Part shown: in pieces, positions 96-21,149 of the stretch
Position numbering within the stretch: the first letter of the stretch is position 1
How the letters are laid out: the number at the start of each line of letters is the position of its first letter
IMG/VR virus record: IMGVR_UViG_3300030110_001739
Span: 47,097-74,491 of that record
Reading direction: 5' to 3' (one strand)
Length of the DNA: 27,395 bases
DNA from: a virus
The notes under the pieces: generated by a model
The model's input: only the letters and a program-made list of their open reading frames with translations
Database searches by the model: none
Told to the model about the DNA's origin: nothing
Program-made: the position numbers and the translations under genes

Positions 96-508
96 ACTAT
101 AGTTTGTTGTAGCACCTCCGATGTACTTGTTGGATCTTGAACATTTTCTACACATCCTACAGCATAAGCTGAACCAGGTGATTTAGAGTCTATACTTTCT
201 ACCTCACTTGTTAAATCACAGATAGCTTTAATTATAGCTGTTAGATAGTTATTTAATGATAGAGGATTACAATCATCTAGATAGACCTGTACTTCAGGAC
301 ATATATCTGATGGAGGGACAACAGGTTGTATACCTGTGCCATCAAGTGTAGAACCTAAAAAGGTAATAAGAGCTTGCTCTACAAAAGATAGAGAATCTCC
401 ATTTTGTATTCCTAATATAGGAACATCTACACCTGTATATTTAACGCACTTGTCTGAAGTAATTTCAGTACAGCCGTTATAACAGTTTGAGCAATTTTGT
501 GTTGACAT
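1..508 (-). CDS. Virion/tail-region protein, partial (runs off left edge)
   Basis: An open frame begins at ATG 508-506 and has no stop before base 1 (169 codons visible), so the 3' end lies outside the window. The N-terminus is cysteine-rich (MSTQNCSNCYNGC), followed by TSDKCVKYTG and NGDSLSFVEQ. From memory, this style of opening is common in virion proteins of marine flavobacterial and crAss-like phages, where later segments take the form 'C.E.V.DP..T.EVLQ'; here CVENVQDPTSTSEVLQQ matches that. It follows the 787-residue protease gene by 25 bases and is probably in the same late transcript. Past about base 115 the translation stops looking like this family, and a different frame carries a clean 12-residue repeat, so the reading frame near the edge is doubtful. 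A role in the tail or receptor binding is inferred from position only. Confidence 0.7.
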   Translation of the reverse strand, partial: MSTQNCSNCYNGCTEITSDKCVKYTGVDVPILGIQNGDSLSFVEQALITFLGSTLDGTGIQPVVPPSDICPEVQVYLDDCNPLSLNNYLTAIIKAICDLTSEVESIDSKSPGSAYAVGCVENVQDPTSTSEVLQQTIVKFILKFGRVHIQKFTQRFGHGPILKYTLLTI

Positions 509-533
509 AATTTTATTATTTTATTTGTTCACC

Positions 534-2897
534 TTATGGTGATGTTTGACTAAATCCGATTGTTATAGCTCCACTAGATACATTAGTTGGACTAAACGTA
601 GTAGTAATAGGTCCTATTACACTTTGAGCTACACCCGTATCAGTATCTGAAACTAATGAAGCACCTGCCCCTACTGCTGTCTGTAATATTGTATCATCAT
701 CTCCAGGAGCTGTTTTCTGATAAGACATTTCTAATTCATATACGTGACCTTCTTGGAAGAACTCAGTAGTATACGTTCCATTACTTGCTGTAGTAGCTGT
801 CTTCTCAAAGAACTTTCCTATACTAGAATCTGTTGTATCAGTAATACTTAGAAACTGAGCGGTACTTCCTACATCTTCCATATCTACAGTAATACTTGAT
901 GTTGAAGCAGCAGTTATAACAACTTTATATTTTACCTTTGGATCTGTTGGAGTAGCTGTAATTGTTATTAAACTTAATGTATCTGTCTTAGAAGCATTAG
1001 CTGCTATAAAACCTTCATCAGTATCCAGTAAAGTTACACCTCCTGATACACTTCCTTTATACTGTTCATGTTCTGCATATTGTGGGTATGACGCAGGGTT
1101 ATTGTCTGTAGTAAGACTTTGAGTTATCTTGTCTCCTGGGCTAACAGTAAATGTTCCACTACCTGTAGGGGTAGCAGGATCAAATGTTACAGGACCTACT
1201 ACTGAAACTCCATTCTTAAAGATCTCTAAACTTGATTCTCTCCATGACTTAGTAGTACCAGGATCTGAACCTTCAAACTCCCAAGTCATTACAAATGCTG
1301 TTGTAGTTGTTGTAGTTGTTGTGCTACTACTAGTTGTTGTAGTACTAGTTGATGTACTAGTAGAGGTACTAGTGGACGTACTGGTACTTGTGCTAGTACT
1401 TGTACTTGTGCTAGTAGAAGTGCTCGTAGAAGTGCTTGTAGAGGTACTAGTAGACGTGCTAGTAGTACTTGTACTTGTACTGGTACTAGTAGATGTACTA
1501 GTTGAACTACTTGTTGTTGTAGTGGTAGGTATAGGAGTGGTAGTAGAAGTGGTGGTTGGACCACAATTAGCTTCTAGTGAACCTGTAAATCCTACTTGCC
1601 AGTATTCTTCATTCTCACAATATATAATTTTCTCATCACTTGCACCATCAATAGTTATGTATGTAACACTATCAGGGTCTATCATTGCTGATGGTCCCAC
1701 TCCCCCACTGGTTACATATTGTTCTATTCCTAATTGATCTACTATATCATCTATTCTACATGCGAGACCAAATATAGTTCCTGTTGAATTACCAGAACCA
1801 GCATAAACTAGTCCTACTATTTTAATTACTCCGTTAAAATCTGCTAATAACATAGATCCGGAATCACCACTATATATAGGGTTATAACATCCTGGACTTT
1901 GAGAATTAGGATCTTCTTGTGGAGGTTTTACAAACTGTATAGATCTTGTAAATGTACATGGTACCTTATAATCAGTCTGATCACATAGAAGAGCTAAATC
2001 CTCCTGATTAGGATTTTGCATTTCATAGCATATTGGAGTTACTAACTGAGGAGAAGAACTTACTCTTAGAGGACACTCAGGTTCCAATCCTTTAGCACCA
2101 GTTCTGTAACCAGCTGTATATAAAGGAGGATTTGTAGCTAATATATTATCTAGCTCTTGAGTGCTTGCAAAAGGTGGAGCCTCTGGTCCCATTATAGATT
2201 CCAGTCCCACTTGTAACCAAGATGCAGTGTCTGAAAAATCTTCCTCTGCTACTGAACATATAGCAGCATCTACTTGATTTACTTGTCCTGAAGCAATAGA
2301 ATGTATAGGAACATATCTTAAACTTACTCCGAAGTTATTAGATGTAGGTGTACCAACACCTTGTACATTATTATAAACTCTATTTACAGGAAATGCGTCA
2401 TTTAATAAAAAGCCATTAATATCTCTATCAGATGTAAAGAAAGCATCATTAATTGAAACGTGATTGTTTGTTAAACCCACCACACCACTAGTTGCACTGT
2501 GTATTACAAAACCTCCTAGAGTTCCTACAGTTGAATCATTGTTTCTACTTGATACAGCTATTCCACTTTTTAAAGGTCTTTGGGTAGCTCTATTGGCTGC
2601 ATTATGTGGATTAGGATTTATATTACCACAATCACTGTCACATGTCATACGTATATTATAAGATATTTCTACGACATCAGTTTTTATTTTTAAACCATCT
2701 ATATCCACTTCAGCACTCACTAACTCATGTGCTGGTACGTGAGAAATTGGTTTCTTTTTTGGAACTGCTATTTGAATAGCAAACTCTCCAGTGTCCACTC
2801 CATTAACTATCTTCTTCCCTAGCCCAATACCAGTAGCTTTAGGATACAGTTTGTGTAGCTCTAAAATCTTATCATGTACTGCTTGTGTTACTTCCAT
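534..2897 (-). CDS. Virion-region trypsin-like (Nal1-type) serine protease with Ser/Thr linker and C-terminal beta-rich domain
   Basis: This is a 787-residue protein. Residues 15-80 (ATGIGLGKK, IQIAVPKKKP, TDVVEI) resemble the leader domain found before S1-family, Nal1-like bacterial proteases. A trypsin-type triad is visible: His146 in LTNNHV, Asp210 in NQVDAAI and Ser346 in YSGDSGSM. Residues 448-533 are almost purely Thr/Ser, mostly alternating, and form a flexible linker. Residues 534-787 are rich in Val/Thr/Gly/Ser with no membrane segment and look like beta-sandwich modules. There is no signal peptide. The gene starts 2 bases after the stop of the beta-propeller protein and precedes another virion gene, so it is probably a late virion or tail-associated enzyme that cuts a surface protein, or that matures a tail protein. 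The catalytic family is well supported by the triad; the substrate and virion location are inferred. Confidence 0.8.
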   Translation of the reverse strand: MEVTQAVHDKILELHKLYPKATGIGLGKKIVNGVDTGEFAIQIAVPKKKPISHVPAHELVSAEVDIDGLKIKTDVVEISYNIRMTCDSDCGNINPNPHNAANRATQRPLKSGIAVSSRNNDSTVGTLGGFVIHSATSGVVGLTNNHVSINDAFFTSDRDINGFLLNDAFPVNRVYNNVQGVGTPTSNNFGVSLRYVPIHSIASGQVNQVDAAICSVAEEDFSDTASWLQVGLESIMGPEAPPFASTQELDNILATNPPLYTAGYRTGAKGLEPECPLRVSSSPQLVTPICYEMQNPNQEDLALLCDQTDYKVPCTFTRSIQFVKPPQEDPNSQSPGCYNPIYSGDSGSMLLADFNGVIKIVGLVYAGSGNSTGTIFGLACRIDDIVDQLGIEQYVTSGGVGPSAMIDPDSVTYITIDGASDEKIIYCENEEYWQVGFTGSLEANCGPTTTSTTTPIPTTTTTSSSTSTSTSTSTSTSTTSTSTSTSTSTSTSTSTSTSTSTSTSTSTSTSTSTSTSTSTTTTSSSTTTTTTTTAFVMTWEFEGSDPGTTKSWRESSLEIFKNGVSVVGPVTFDPATPTGSGTFTVSPGDKITQSLTTDNNPASYPQYAEHEQYKGSVSGGVTLLDTDEGFIAANASKTDTLSLITITATPTDPKVKYKVVITAASTSSITVDMEDVGSTAQFLSITDTTDSSIGKFFEKTATTASNGTYTTEFFQEGHVYELEMSYQKTAPGDDDTILQTAVGAGASLVSDTDTGVAQSVIGPITTTFSPTNVSSGAITIGFSQTSP
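1299..1556 (-). repeat. Low-complexity Ser/Thr linker-coding tract
   Basis: These 86 codons are almost entirely Thr and Ser, largely alternating, with one PIP interruption near the start. Synonymous codons are mixed (ACT, ACA, ACC, AGT, AGC, TCT), so the peptide pattern is kept while the DNA is not a perfect microsatellite. The tract separates the protease domain from the C-terminal beta-rich domain. Its antisense strand stays open, giving a Val/Leu-rich shadow frame that is not a gene. Confidence 0.85.
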
Positions 2898-2898
2898 C

Positions 2899-5800
2899 TT
2901 ATACTGATTGGTTAAAAAGGTTAAATTTAGTAAATATTGTTCTTGCTCCTGAGACTACAGTGGTAGTTGTAGTTGTTGTTTCTCCAGGAATAGTTGTTGT
3001 AGTGGTGGTAGTACCAAAAGTAAAGCCTTGACTTACTCTACAACTAGGTAAACTATCAGCTCCTGCTGCTTGATATGCAAAATCATCTGTTACTTGTTCC
3101 CATGTTGCAGTTGCAAAATCAATTCTCCATAATTTGTCTGAGAAAGCTTGTGCATTTTCATCTTCTAATGTAACATATATATAACCATCAACTGCCATCA
3201 AATCTGGAGAACTTGCCCATCCAGCTGGATAAGGAACACTACCTTCAAACTGTCCAGTCTGGTAGTCAAATTGACTTAGTCTTCTAGTTGGACCAACGGT
3301 GCTACCATCCTCTCCATTATCATATCCTATCAACTTACTAGGTGTACCATCTTCGTTAAGAAGAACTACAAGTTCTCCACCAAAGTTTGAATATGGTGGG
3401 TTTGGAATTTGGAACTTAAGATCTACTATCATATCAGTAGTACCGTCTGATGGGAAGGTTGCTTCAAATACTTGTATATTCTCGTACTCGCTATATGCAC
3501 AACCATTGATATCATCACATCTGAAATATTGCATTACTAGTGTGTCATCACTAATTGCAGTTATTCCAAAAATACTATTAAGCATAGATCCTGGAGACCA
3601 GACATTTAATCCTGGTAAATCTTGTATCTTAAGATTATATAACACTCCATCCCATACAACATTTTGTGGTACCTCATTTGAATCTACTCCAGTGTAGTTA
3701 TATCTTACTAACTGTTGTGGTACATCTGGAACATTTCTTTGATTCATGTTAATCTGTCCTATCATATAGTTATCAGAGTAACCAAAGTTAACATTTTGGA
3801 AATAGGAATTTCCTGGTAATAGAACCTGATTTAGTGTATCTGTATATATATTATGTACGTATATTCTATTCAGATTACCAAATAAATTTTCTGGAGAACA
3901 AAGACCAGCATTTTCTGCATTAGAACATTTAGTTATTTCACGTCCAGCAAATACTCTAGTACATGTTGGGTCAGGTGTTTGTACACATCCAAGTGCCCAA
4001 CCACCTCCATTACCTCTATTAGTTCCTTTAATTGTAAGAACTGTAAAGTCTTCAGAACCTGTAATGGTAAATGTTCCACTACCTCTTCCACTACTTGTGC
4101 CAACATCTGTGTAAACTTCATTTCCATTTTGAATGTTATAAAAACAACCTCCGTCTTGTGAAATTGTAGTACTTGTTGCATTTGTACTAAAGAAGAAGTT
4201 ATCACCCGTATCAAATATAGAACCTCTTAAAGGTATGTTGTTTATTGGTATTGGAAATGTAAGAGTATAATCAAATGCTGGGAAACTGCTTGATCCAGGA
4301 TCCAGACTTATATTTCCATTAAAAATTACACTATCAGCTGGTATTGTAATACCACAGTCAGTAGTATACGTAGGACCTGTTACAGTATCTCTCATTCCTT
4401 CAAACACTATACTTGATGCCTCAACTGTCATTCCAGAGTACTCAAAACTCACAGGACCAATATATACTTTGTTTCCATCCTCATCCTCAGTTACAAGAGT
4501 TGGTAGAGCAGTAGGGGTACAATCATTCAACTCATCAGGAGTAACAATTCTTACATCTGCACAAGGTATAGCAGAAACTAACCATACACTATCATCTTCT
4601 ATAGTAGTTGTAAGAGTAGCATCATAGTAAGGATTTTGCTGTATTGTATATACTTCATTAGTTTCTGGTTGTAATGTTTGTAACAATCCATTTACTCCCC
4701 ATAGAGGCATAGCTTTAGTATCAGCCCATGACTCACTAAATTGAGGTACACCTAGACCTTGTAAATTAAGAATAGGGAAAGGATTATCATTATCAGCATT
4801 TGCCCAATCTTGTTGAGTAGCTCCTGGAATATAGCTACCATTACCGCCTATATCATCTCTATTAGTTGGAGGTAACCCTTTATACTGTCTAACGTAATTA
4901 AATGCATTAAGATCATATTCCAGTCCATAATATCTAGCGGAAACTAGTACATTATTATCAGTGGTAACTAGAAGTCCAGTAACATCAATAAGAGAAGAAT
5001 AAGTGTTACCGAAATTAACACTATTCATTCCTAGTGCATTATCTTTTGGAGTTAGTGTACCAGCATTCAAATCAAATGAATACACTCCTGCTGAATTTGG
5101 ATTTTGGTAACCCATAGCAACTATCAGCATAGTAAATGGTACCTCAGGCCAATAACTAGTACCGGGATATTCACTAGGTCCAACAGCAGGAGATTCTGCT
5201 ATAGCTATCGCCTGAACTCTAGTTCCCCAGATACCTTTTTTATTACTCTGACCTGTTTCAATTTTAATTTCTCTTACATAACTTAATACAGGAGCTACAC
5301 CAGTAGCATCTATACTCCATTCTCTAAGTAGAACATAATCATACTGTTCAATTTGATTCTCACTAGTTCCATCTGGTGCATCATTTAAAACTACACTAGT
5401 TAGATATAAATGAGTTTCATTTGCAGCCATAGGTCTATTAATACCCTGTGTCTCGTTAAAGTCATTAGGAACTAATACATCAGTTTGAGTATTGGTATCA
5501 AAGTCATATACACCAACTAAACCTGGATTACCACCGTTAGTAGACCATAGACATGGTACACCAAATGGATCTGGGAAATAAGTTGTAGTAGTGGTTGTTG
5601 TAGGAGGGGCTGTAGTAGTGGTAGTTGTTGTAACATCACAATCAATTGAACCACTAAAGTTACAGTTAAGAGTTGTAGTGGTTGTAGTTGTACTACTTGT
5701 ACTAGTTGTAGTTGTACTAGACGTACTAGTGGTAGTAGTTGTAGGATTAGGACAAGGCGTTAGAGCACATGTAGTTATTTCACATACAGTTGGTTCGTTA

Positions 5801-6087
5801 CAGAATGGTACACAACCAGCTGTAAGACGAATAACTTTACTAGCAATATCCTCTGTACTTACCGTAGGACAACTTTCAGCATAATGAGTATCACAAAATC
5901 TATGTTGTAAAACACGTTTATATACTAACAATTGAGATATCTCGCTATTAGCAATAGGCTTGTTCAACATAAATACAACATTGTTGTATAAGTTGTTTCC
6001 AAGCTCTGCTAATTTGCAGTCTATCTTTCTAAGTAAATCAGGAATGTTTGCACACTCCTTACAATTGGTTAGTTTGGGTGATATCAT
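2899..6087 (-). CDS. Large tail/virion protein with poly-Thr linkers and beta-propeller-like repeats
   Basis: This is a 1062-residue protein. Residues 1-115 form a compact cysteine-containing head (MISPKLTNCKECANIPDLL, then KIDCKLAELGNNLYNN) that I recall as a conserved N-terminal module of flavobacterial phage virion proteins, probably the particle-attachment part. Two Thr-rich linkers lie at about 116-140 and 152-168, around the short segment LNCNFSGSIDCD. The remainder has repeated strand patterns such as VGVYDFDTNTQTD, AGVYSFDLNAGT, LNRIYVHNIYTDT, RRLSQFDYQTGQ and KLWRIDFATATWE, as expected for a beta-propeller or Kelch-like fold. A Gly/Ser/Thr-rich insert sits near 560-690. The C-terminus has two more Thr tracts and only about 20 further residues. 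It is probably a tail fibre, spike or adhesin. The fold is inferred from sequence pattern, and no enzymatic motif was seen. Confidence 0.7.
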   Translation of the reverse strand: MISPKLTNCKECANIPDLLRKIDCKLAELGNNLYNNVVFMLNKPIANSEISQLLVYKRVLQHRFCDTHYAESCPTVSTEDIASKVIRLTAGCVPFCNEPTVCEITTCALTPCPNPTTTTTSTSSTTTTSTSSTTTTTTTLNCNFSGSIDCDVTTTTTTTAPPTTTTTTTYFPDPFGVPCLWSTNGGNPGLVGVYDFDTNTQTDVLVPNDFNETQGINRPMAANETHLYLTSVVLNDAPDGTSENQIEQYDYVLLREWSIDATGVAPVLSYVREIKIETGQSNKKGIWGTRVQAIAIAESPAVGPSEYPGTSYWPEVPFTMLIVAMGYQNPNSAGVYSFDLNAGTLTPKDNALGMNSVNFGNTYSSLIDVTGLLVTTDNNVLVSARYYGLEYDLNAFNYVRQYKGLPPTNRDDIGGNGSYIPGATQQDWANADNDNPFPILNLQGLGVPQFSESWADTKAMPLWGVNGLLQTLQPETNEVYTIQQNPYYDATLTTTIEDDSVWLVSAIPCADVRIVTPDELNDCTPTALPTLVTEDEDGNKVYIGPVSFEYSGMTVEASSIVFEGMRDTVTGPTYTTDCGITIPADSVIFNGNISLDPGSSSFPAFDYTLTFPIPINNIPLRGSIFDTGDNFFFSTNATSTTISQDGGCFYNIQNGNEVYTDVGTSSGRGSGTFTITGSEDFTVLTIKGTNRGNGGGWALGCVQTPDPTCTRVFAGREITKCSNAENAGLCSPENLFGNLNRIYVHNIYTDTLNQVLLPGNSYFQNVNFGYSDNYMIGQINMNQRNVPDVPQQLVRYNYTGVDSNEVPQNVVWDGVLYNLKIQDLPGLNVWSPGSMLNSIFGITAISDDTLVMQYFRCDDINGCAYSEYENIQVFEATFPSDGTTDMIVDLKFQIPNPPYSNFGGELVVLLNEDGTPSKLIGYDNGEDGSTVGPTRRLSQFDYQTGQFEGSVPYPAGWASSPDLMAVDGYIYVTLEDENAQAFSDKLWRIDFATATWEQVTDDFAYQAAGADSLPSCRVSQGFTFGTTTTTTTIPGETTTTTTTVVSGARTIFTKFNLFNQSV

Positions 6088-20397: not shown

Positions 20398-20466
20398 GTA
20401 CTATTGCAACTGTTTTACGTGTAAACTTAAACAGTAGTGTACACAGTACCCACTTTAACCCACTTT
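20398..20466 (+). promoter_or_regulatory. Dyad element plus short direct repeat
   Basis: ACTGTTT (20409-20415) and AAACAGT (20429-20435) form a 7-bp dyad around a 13-base spacer containing TTTACGTGTAAA. An outer GTACT/AGTAC pair (20398-20402 with 20445-20449) is also possible. Immediately after, ACCCACTTT is repeated at 20448-20456 and 20458-20466. The whole could be an operator, a cruciform or part of an origin. Confidence 0.45.
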
Positions 20467-20514
20467 TTACCACAGATAAATAAACAAGACATATAATAAA
20501 TATATAGCATTAAG

Positions 20515-20655
20515 ATGACAGAAGACGACTATAACAACAGACAAGGCAAATCAGAACAGCAGTATAGATCTGCTATGATATGTACAACTATCTCCTATAT
20601 AGGTTTGATAGTTTCCTTTATACTAATAGTAATAATAAATAATATAAGATTATGA
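20515..20655 (+). CDS. 46-residue single-pass membrane protein
   Basis: A frame from ATG 20515 to TGA 20655 gives a charged N-terminus (MTEDDYNNRQGKSEQQYRSA) and one hydrophobic segment of about 20 residues (TTISYIGLIVSFILIVII), then NNIRL. The end overlaps the next ATG as ATGA, typical of coupled phage genes. It is a small membrane protein of unknown function, possibly an early host-modifying protein. Confidence 0.6.
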   Translation: MTEDDYNNRQGKSEQQYRSAMICTTISYIGLIVSFILIVIINNIRL

Positions 20656-20801
20656 AACGCAAGATTAAACTACTACCTACAGCATTCTATAGATTTAGAC
20701 TAGCAGCATTTGCTGTTGGCTTATTCTTTATGTGCTCAATACAAAATGGAGAATACACTGTGGAAGCAGATGACTCAGAGTTAGAACAATTAGGATATTA
20801 A
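20652..20801 (+). CDS. 49-residue protein with an N-terminal hydrophobic segment
   Basis: Starting within ATGA of the previous gene, it begins with a basic stretch (MKRKIKLLPTAFYRFR), then a hydrophobic segment (LAAFAVGLFFMCS), and ends with an acidic soluble tail (EYTVEADDSELEQLGY). The pattern resembles a signal anchor or a lipoprotein-like export signal: Cys follows the hydrophobic core, though the lipobox is not classical. It is probably membrane- or periplasm-directed. Function is unknown. Confidence 0.6.
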   Translation: MKRKIKLLPTAFYRFRLAAFAVGLFFMCSIQNGEYTVEADDSELEQLGY

Positions 20802-20805
20802 CCTT

Positions 20806-21010
20806 AAGGGCTAGACTAACAATCATGGATTCTAGATAAATACAAGGATAGGCAAGAGAATGCTATGACCCTTACCTCAACGCTGCAGGAGAGCAGAAGA
20901 AAGGCCCTTTTAACTAACATAACGACTAGAGCAATGAGTCACGCAATACCACTGACTATTCTGAGATAGTGTCAGCCTTTATGGATAAGCACTCTAGTTC
21001 TATGTTAGTT
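20806..21010 (+). ncRNA. Candidate structured RNA, two adjacent domains
   Basis: No convincing gene fills this 225-base gap, yet it is dense in complementary segments. Domain A (20806-20909) is closed by AAGGGC/GCCCTT. Inside are TAGA/TCTA (20812-20815 with 20831-20834), AAGG-ATAG(g)CA with TGCTAT...CCTT (844-854 with 861-873), and CTGC/GCAG (883-886 with 893-896) around an AGGAGA loop. Domain B (20912-21010) is closed by a perfect 10-bp AACTAACATA/TATGTTAGTT, then ACTAGAG/CTCTAGT (925-931 with 992-998), then an inner CTGACTAT/ATAGTGTCAG hairpin (952-959 with 966-975) with a 2-base bulge. No tRNA T-arm motif or known riboswitch core was recognised. A 34-codon frame (20865-20969) spans both domains and is an alternative explanation for part of it. 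Confidence 0.55.
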
Positions 21011-21026
21011 TTAAATACATAACATT

Positions 21027-21149
21027 ATGAAACATTGGCTAAACGAAGGTCTTGAGATACTTAAGGTGTTACACAAGGCTAGAAAGCAATCAAATAAAAA
21101 ATCGAAAAATGGCAAAAGACGGAAAAGAGACGATAACAGTAAAATATAG
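21027..21149 (+). CDS. Possible 40-residue basic protein
   Basis: A frame from ATG 21027 to TAG 21149 encodes MKHWLNEGLEILKVLHKARK followed by a very basic, lysine/arginine-rich tail ending DDNSKI. An amphipathic helix plus basic tail suggests nucleic-acid or membrane contact. It begins 16 bases after the structured RNA and overlaps the next gene by 41 bases in another frame, so its reality is only moderately supported. Confidence 0.45.
   Translation: MKHWLNEGLEILKVLHKARKQSNKKSKNGKRRKRDDNSKI

Follow-up and report, generated by a model that had tools for sequence, protein, structure and literature searches.

The 205-base gap at positions 20806-21010 of the stretch analysed here (the window, 27,395 nucleotides of a viral record, G000, of 74,491 bases) almost certainly encodes two separate structured RNA elements, both on the plus strand and called E1 and E2 in the following. 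Each of them consists of a near-invariant core enclosed by a closing helix that varies. In a group of mostly marine tailed phages, they are exchangeable cassettes inserted among tiny ORFs in the early part of the rightward operon, and were previously unlisted as RNA families.

A sequence-only reading of the gap had proposed an undescribed structured phage RNA, folded into two adjacent domains. The first part of this proposal is borne out by the absence of Rfam matches, by the pair counts of E2 and by permutation of the closing helices of both elements. Both domains are indeed structured; they are, however, independently inherited elements, each occurring alone in other phages, rather than halves of one molecule.

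Genomic setting

The gap lies in the rightward module, between an ORF of 49 codons (20654-20803) and one of 40 codons, starting at 21028. The window terminase and portal proteins match PHROG head-and-packaging families, and an ORF of 654 amino acids matches DNA polymerases. Among annotated phages, the large terminase (TerL) is closest to that of Leptolyngbya phage Lbo-JY46 (40% identity), followed by Cellulophaga phi17:2 (32%), matches which place the window, by protein similarity, among tailed phages of the crAss-like/Lightbulbvirus neighbourhood. In the structural module (534-6087, minus strand), two large proteins carry extended runs of Thr/Ser (TTTTSTST).

The features discussed below are listed here, by position in the window unless otherwise stated.

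20435-20508, plus strand: promoter-like block (CCCACTTTAACCCACTTTTTACCAC ... TATAATAAATATATAGC at 20492-20508), upstream of E1 and E2; a sequence match only
20806-20909, plus strand: E1, first structured RNA; matched by model R2 at 20805-20909 with 125.9 bits (the model's seeds include the window)
20806-20812, plus strand: E1 P1, 5' strand AAGGGCU, last pair U-G; partner at 20903-20909; the unrelated P1s of relatives each fit their own 3' strand
20818-20824, plus strand: E1 core strand A, AACAAUC; present in nearly all E1 copies
20827-20876, plus strand: E1 P3 arm; closed by GG (20827-20828) and CC (20875-20876), with a variable inner stem
20878-20896, plus strand: E1 core strand B and P4, CAACG-CUGC-AGGAGA-GCAG; in about 25 viral contigs, loop ARGAGA
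20903-20909, plus strand: E1 P1, 3' strand GGCCCUU; basis as for the 5' strand
20912-21010, plus strand: E2, second structured RNA; matched by model R1 at 20918-21006 with 96.6 bits (the model's seeds include the window), pair counts, fold z -2.67
20912-20931, plus strand: E2 P1, 5' strand; outer part AACUAACAUA (20912-20921), inner part GACUAGAG (20924-20931); columns 5-9 of alignment A1 covary with 120-124
20932-20951, plus strand: E2 core, 5' joining strand CAAUGAGUCACGCAAUACCA; scarcely varies among 23 distinct copies, retained in minimal copies L160 and L210
20952-20975, plus strand: E2 P3, bulged hairpin CUGAC-UAU-UCUGAG-AUA-GU-GUCAG; two covarying pairs (GC to UA, CG to UA) with every cell paired; missing from minimal copies
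20976-20984, plus strand: E2 P4, CC/GG hairpin; about 7 to 77 nt long in relatives, CG to UA change in three copies
20985-20991, plus strand: E2 core, 3' joining strand AUAAGCA; invariant in A1, AUAAGCG in L271
20992-21010, plus strand: E2 P1, 3' strand CUCUAGUU-C-UAUGUUAGUU; basis as for the 5' strand
about 6430-6500 of L006, minus strand: E4, third conserved RNA module, in the E2 slot; also in L009, L220 and L261

The placement of the gap at the start of the rightward module agrees with the data: E1 and E2 lie on the same strand as the module and downstream of a common promoter-like sequence. This block (20435-20508), composed of repeated CCAC boxes plus TATAATAAATATATAGC, was not listed by a sigma-70 scan. 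It precedes E1, E2 or E4 in L001, L002, L004, L010, L115, L162, L170, L214 and L220, at distances from 19 to about 1160 nt (19-22 nt in L162, L170 and L220; 118 nt in L115 and L214), and its end, TATAATAnATATATAGC, is common to near and far relatives. The E2 core lies 425 nt from the block in the window, and about 400-550 nt from it across the window clade.

Base pairing in E2

The nested stems and bulged hairpin (20952-20975) described earlier for the second domain are present. The outer stem, AACTAACATA/TATGTTAGTT, pairs 20912-20921 with 21001-21010 over 10 bp and has a counterpart in L162, L170 and L141; the inner stem, GACTAGAG/CTCTAGTT, pairs 20924-20931 with 20992-20999 and has 8 pairs, the last being G-U. 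The core enclosed by P1 may be summarized as AUGAGUCAnGCAAUACC...AUAAGCA, its joining strands nAUGAGUCAnGCAAUACCA and AUAAGCA being near-invariant.

Covariation in relatives, suggested beforehand as a check of the structure, was evaluated on alignment A1, which contains 23 distinct E2 copies and 21 pairs. Standard pairs fill 96.5% of the pair cells, a share which falls to 29-42% after one strand is shifted by 1-3 columns. Two-sided changes affect nine pairs, for a total of 47 cells against 15.4 in shuffles, a figure which does not represent a probability, as the copies are related. The most variable helix is P1. When its partners were permuted among copies, a test covering E1 and E2 (E4 being available in three copies), none of 50,000 permutations did as well for E2: the two flanks of a copy fit each other, but do not fit the partner strands of the remaining copies. 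The minimal copies, L160 and L210, are devoid of P3 and P4 and keep core and P1, with differing P1 sequences.

Two further observations concern individual E2 loci. An insertion common to L002, L134 and L141 (UUGGACAACUAAAGCAUGAGA...UAGUUAGUCAA) lengthens P4, and may be another nested element. In L132 and L210, odd tRNA-like genes, uncalled by ARAGORN, are found just 3' of E2; the one in L132 reaches 36 bits with the tRNA-Sec model, below the cut-off.

Base pairing in E1

The AAGGGC/GCCCTT arm proposed to close the first domain is present, at 20806-20811 and 20904-20909. E1 copies share, with small departures, the core AACAAUC-NN-[P3]-U-CAACG-CUGC-ARGAGA-GCAG inside P1; core strand A is replaced by AGCAAUAAUC or AGCAACAAUC in the L042/L101/L036 type (AGCAAUAAUC in L042). 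The P1 sequences belong to mutually unrelated types (AAGGGCU, AAGAACUA, AUAGAAGGCUGG, AUAGAAUGGCU, AAAGUAACC and AAAACGAAA), each having its complement downstream. Over 10 types and variants, flanks pair with their own partners at -13.1 kcal/mol versus -7.4 kcal/mol for cross-pairing, and only 3 out of 50,000 permutations were as low (65 out of 50,000 with one sequence per type).

The case for E1 rests on this cross-partner test and on the different P1 types, because the other measures were weak: RNAalifold found P4 as the sole helix in a first mixed alignment, and pair counts within the close clade (alignment A3, where MAFFT shifted L038 and L023 by one base) gave little. The E1 model was built from eight close copies only, the wider P1 types being left out of the seeds. 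It finds L090, L010, L228, L093, L227 and L086 at E-values from 1e-5 to 0.03. The L042 type and the L100 place are reached only at E 0.08-0.44, as are two places at chance level.

Three internal hairpins had been suggested for this domain. The supported parts are P1, P4 (CUGC-ARGAGA-GCAG) and a variable P3, whose inner stem is AAGGAU/AUCCUU in L006 and AAGUG/CACUU in L008 and L009, and of which only a short hairpin is left in L041, L038 and L023; its closing pairs vary little inside the close clade. The CTAGA/TCTAG hairpin, which competes with an extension of P1, is inconsistently kept in relatives. The resemblance of the AGGAGA loop to a ribosome-binding sequence was also abandoned as Shine-Dalgarno mimicry, because some copies have AAGAGA at this place. 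Nor does the alternative of a conserved 34-codon protein frame (20865-20969) hold, since stops interrupt it in nearly every relative.

At one locus, L100, the E1 core strands occur in reversed order: CAACGCUGCAGGAGAGCAG comes first, followed by a short spacer and by AACAAUC. The closing helix, of 10-11 bp, is the one that is P3 elsewhere, and the fold has a z-score of -3.08. The TerL of this record is 26% identical to that of the window. The evidence for a circularly permuted E1 is thin, coming from one locus, but specific, because the joining lengths are preserved (NN after AACAAUC, U before CAACG). In L227-L230, two E1 cores stand in tandem within one outer P1, an arrangement readable as nested.

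Folding energy and known RNA families

Comparison of the fold energy with shuffled sequences, another check proposed at the outset, gave a divided answer. The plus strand of the whole 205-nt gap is unremarkable (z -0.96), and so is E1 alone (z -0.25, average), whereas E2 alone reaches z -2.67, with 3 out of 200 shuffles equally good. Thermodynamic folding was consequently discarded as proof of structure, which is decided by the comparison with homologues. Energy cannot decide the strand either, because the minus strand also scores (z -1.56 for the gap, z -3.14 for E2). Within E2 helices, G-U pairs occupy 9 cells versus 2 for A-C, as expected of RNA transcribed from the plus strand.

No Rfam 15 covariance model matched anywhere in the window at gathering score; a single chance match (E 8.6) was produced by region 20780-21040, and none by the E2 copies in 18 loci. 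Hammerhead or twister cores were not found by covariance model in the window, in the gap region or in these E2 copies, and ARAGORN called no tRNA or tmRNA in the window. In the other relatives, the search for known ribozymes returned above cut-off only tRNAs and one tmRNA. A phage-encoded tmRNA, with a tRNA adjoining, is located at 167-517 (minus strand) of L027, a relative with 85% identical TerL, and scores 73.6 bits. Identity with Y RNA was rejected, as the partner TROVE (Ro) protein, PF05731, is absent from all 18 records searched, several of which are partial. A riboswitch was likewise rejected, since the ORFs downstream of E2 vary among phages, with no fixed tie to one gene family. No description of E1, E2 or E4 in crAss-like or other phages was found in the open-access literature.

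Distribution and exchange

Relatives of the window were gathered via terL and an ORF close to the gap; they conserve two blocks, separated by a stretch that varies. Pattern scans of 2.9 million viral contigs, from which chance matches in coding sequences were removed by eye, yielded about 50 true E2 contigs and about 25 true E1 contigs. E1 is present without E2 in L006, L007, L009, L010, L041, L042 and L086, and most E2 contigs are without E1, a distribution pointing to independent inheritance and not to one two-domain RNA. Weak extra matches aside, each element occupies one place per genome. Where E2 and terL share a record, terL always occupies the strand opposite to E2, and E2 belongs to the rightward module; E1 is likewise sense to this module wherever terL was found.

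Outside the close clade, the TerL of E2 phages is 28-34% identical to that of the window, and the E2 core is almost unchanged; the ORFs on both sides of E2 vary from phage to phage. Closely aligning flanks enclose E2 in the window and E4 in L006; similarly, E2 is present in L008 and the same place is empty in L007 and L009. Many records with 81-95% identical terL are without E2, and some close relatives are without any known module. Of the leader role that the sequence-only reading also suggested, one form can be set aside: E1 and E2 are not gene-specific leaders, because the flanking ORFs differ and the RNA is absent or swapped in close relatives.

The E4 core is AGUUUGCCU...GGACAUCAGGCU..ARGAUAACCAACGA, closed by a covarying P1 (UUGACAC/GUGUCAA, GAUAC/GUAUC or GGCAC/GUGCC). 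In L009 it lies upstream of E1. It is nearly identical in L005/L006 and in the distant L220, whose TerL is about 31% identical to that of the window. A terminator follows E4 in L220, and likewise E2 in L120. A fourth motif, E3, adjoins E2 in L115, L121, L133, L141, L162, L170, L214 and L220; it features a hairpin, CUNUU/AANAG, with a compensatory change, and a conserved tail, AUAGUACCCGCAAUAUUG, directly 5' of an ORF or of E2.

No isolate phage examined carries E2: with the gap and E2 as blastn queries, 50,697 phage records yielded nothing beyond short matches of no relation, and the E2 model had no match in Leptolyngbya phage Lbo-JY46, Cellulophaga phi17:2 and phi14:2, or Flavobacterium FpV4. 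A scan of genomes identified one real E2, on a phage-looking 114.7-kb contig of a metagenome-assembled genome; the other two matches were rejected as coding sequence.

Possible functions

Our preferred reading, held tentatively, is that E1 and E2 are cis-acting RNAs of the rightward transcript, which would most likely process it by self-cleavage. They would cut the leader or separate its small cistrons, and any of several unrelated modules (E1, E2, E4) could do the job. Such interchangeability would explain the replacements within the slot, the varying neighbour genes, the missing P3 and P4 and the swapped strand order of E1. Self-cleavage fits best because it accommodates module substitution in one slot, indifference to neighbour genes, optional helices and circular permutation; the anatomy is also ribozyme-like, with variable helices around a fixed core, helices omitted in L160 and L210 and a permuted E1 in L100. 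Among natural RNAs, circular permutations are listed for hammerhead and twister ribozymes, 5S rRNA and group II introns; in addition, ribozymes that cleave themselves are often close neighbours (PMC10085705).

Phage hammerheads, which border short gene blocks whose identity varies (PMC3088659), resemble E1 and E2 in being small and compact, with a fixed core and variable helices, and intergenic in phage transcripts; their permuted forms may have a counterpart in the L100 form of E1. They differ by their core (CUGANGA, GAAA, UH), which E1 and E2, without Rfam match, do not contain. The twister ribozyme shares optional helices, fixed internal loops and, if the L100 form is a true permutation, circular permutation, but its core sequence is unmatched, and E1 and E2 have no Rfam match. 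That neither core fits an Rfam ribozyme family counts against self-cleavage, as does the occurrence of the permuted E1 at a single locus. In addition, the prior for a new ribozyme class is low, since the candidate motifs tested in one study besides hammerheads showed no self-cleavage (PMC10085705). The unusually conserved loop and bulge of E2 P3 could equally mark a protein-binding site, and the terminators after E4 in L220 and E2 in L120 also suit stand-alone small RNAs.

It is possible, though improbable, that the elements act in trans, as accessory small RNAs excised or separately transcribed, stable, gained and lost, and directed at host RNA or protein (for example, as anti-defence decoys). 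Their patchy presence among close relatives, the near-identity of E4 in L005 and L220 across the TerL distance given above, the tRNA-like genes adjoining E2 in L132 and L210 and the terminators after some copies would suit this role. It is harder to reconcile with the window clade having no dedicated promoter for E1, E2 or E4, with copies lying inside the operon between ORFs, with cores mostly held in P1-closed loops and devoid of a common exposed seed, and with the lack of copies found at other genome places. T4 stable RNAs C and D sit in a tRNA cluster. They are comparable to E2 in L132 and L210 as structured non-tRNA RNAs beside phage tRNAs; the likeness is one of position, and E1 and E2 of the window have no nearby tRNA.

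The self-cleaving reading may be extended to a bolder and doubtful one, in which E1, E2 and E4 would represent several new classes of self-cleaving RNA able to replace one another, mobile as cassettes in a single leader slot of marine phages that form a widespread group, with E1 existing in ordinary, permuted and nested double forms.

Unlikely, in our judgement, is control of the nascent transcript, by which a put-like or EAR-like antiterminator, or a protein-binding leader, would act on RNA polymerase or mRNA stability in the rightward operon. The antitermination RNA put of HK022 consists of two adjacent stem-loops early in a phage operon. Its likeness to E1 and E2 extends to the strand and to sequence conservation; E1 and E2, however, are not always two and vary in order and identity, and any contact of theirs with polymerase would be hypothetical. 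The promoter-like block close upstream (at 19-22 or 118 nt in the loci given above), the terminator 3' of E2 in L120, the restriction to the sense strand and the indifference to the following gene are all in keeping with transcript control; many close relatives, however, are without E2 and some without any known module, several unrelated structures in one slot are harder to square with one polymerase contact, and circular permutation is, to our knowledge, not known for elements of this type.

It is very improbable that E2 is a leader peptide gene with its hairpins as attenuator. A frame, AUGAGUCAnGCAAUACCA...UAG, does read MSQAIPLTILK or a close variant in every copy, with start and stop kept in all distinct E2 copies counted. 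This micro-frame is always open, yet its variation does not look like peptide selection: 4 of the 6 variable positions alter or end the peptide (Q/H, T/I, K/stop, K/R), and the other two, in P3 (G37T, C39T), change together with their pairing partners. Moreover, the AUG comes two or three bases past a stable stem, leaving no space for a ribosome-binding sequence, minimal E2 copies read into another peptide, and nothing similar is found in E1 or E4. A DNA-level element between transcription modules, such as a replication origin or recombination site, is scarcely credible despite the nearby coding-strand switch, since helix changes pass via plus-strand G-U pairs, the place within the operon shifts and several relatives are without the element.

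Implications

It is rare for structured RNAs to stay near-unchanged across phages whose terminases share only about 30% identity; in the present case, moreover, several unrelated RNAs swap in one leader slot. The function of E1, E2 and E4 is directly testable in vitro, because their cores are small (50-100 nt). If they do cleave, one or more ribozyme classes would be added to those known; if they do not, the elements would suggest a phage system, of small RNAs or of transcription control, absent from current libraries.
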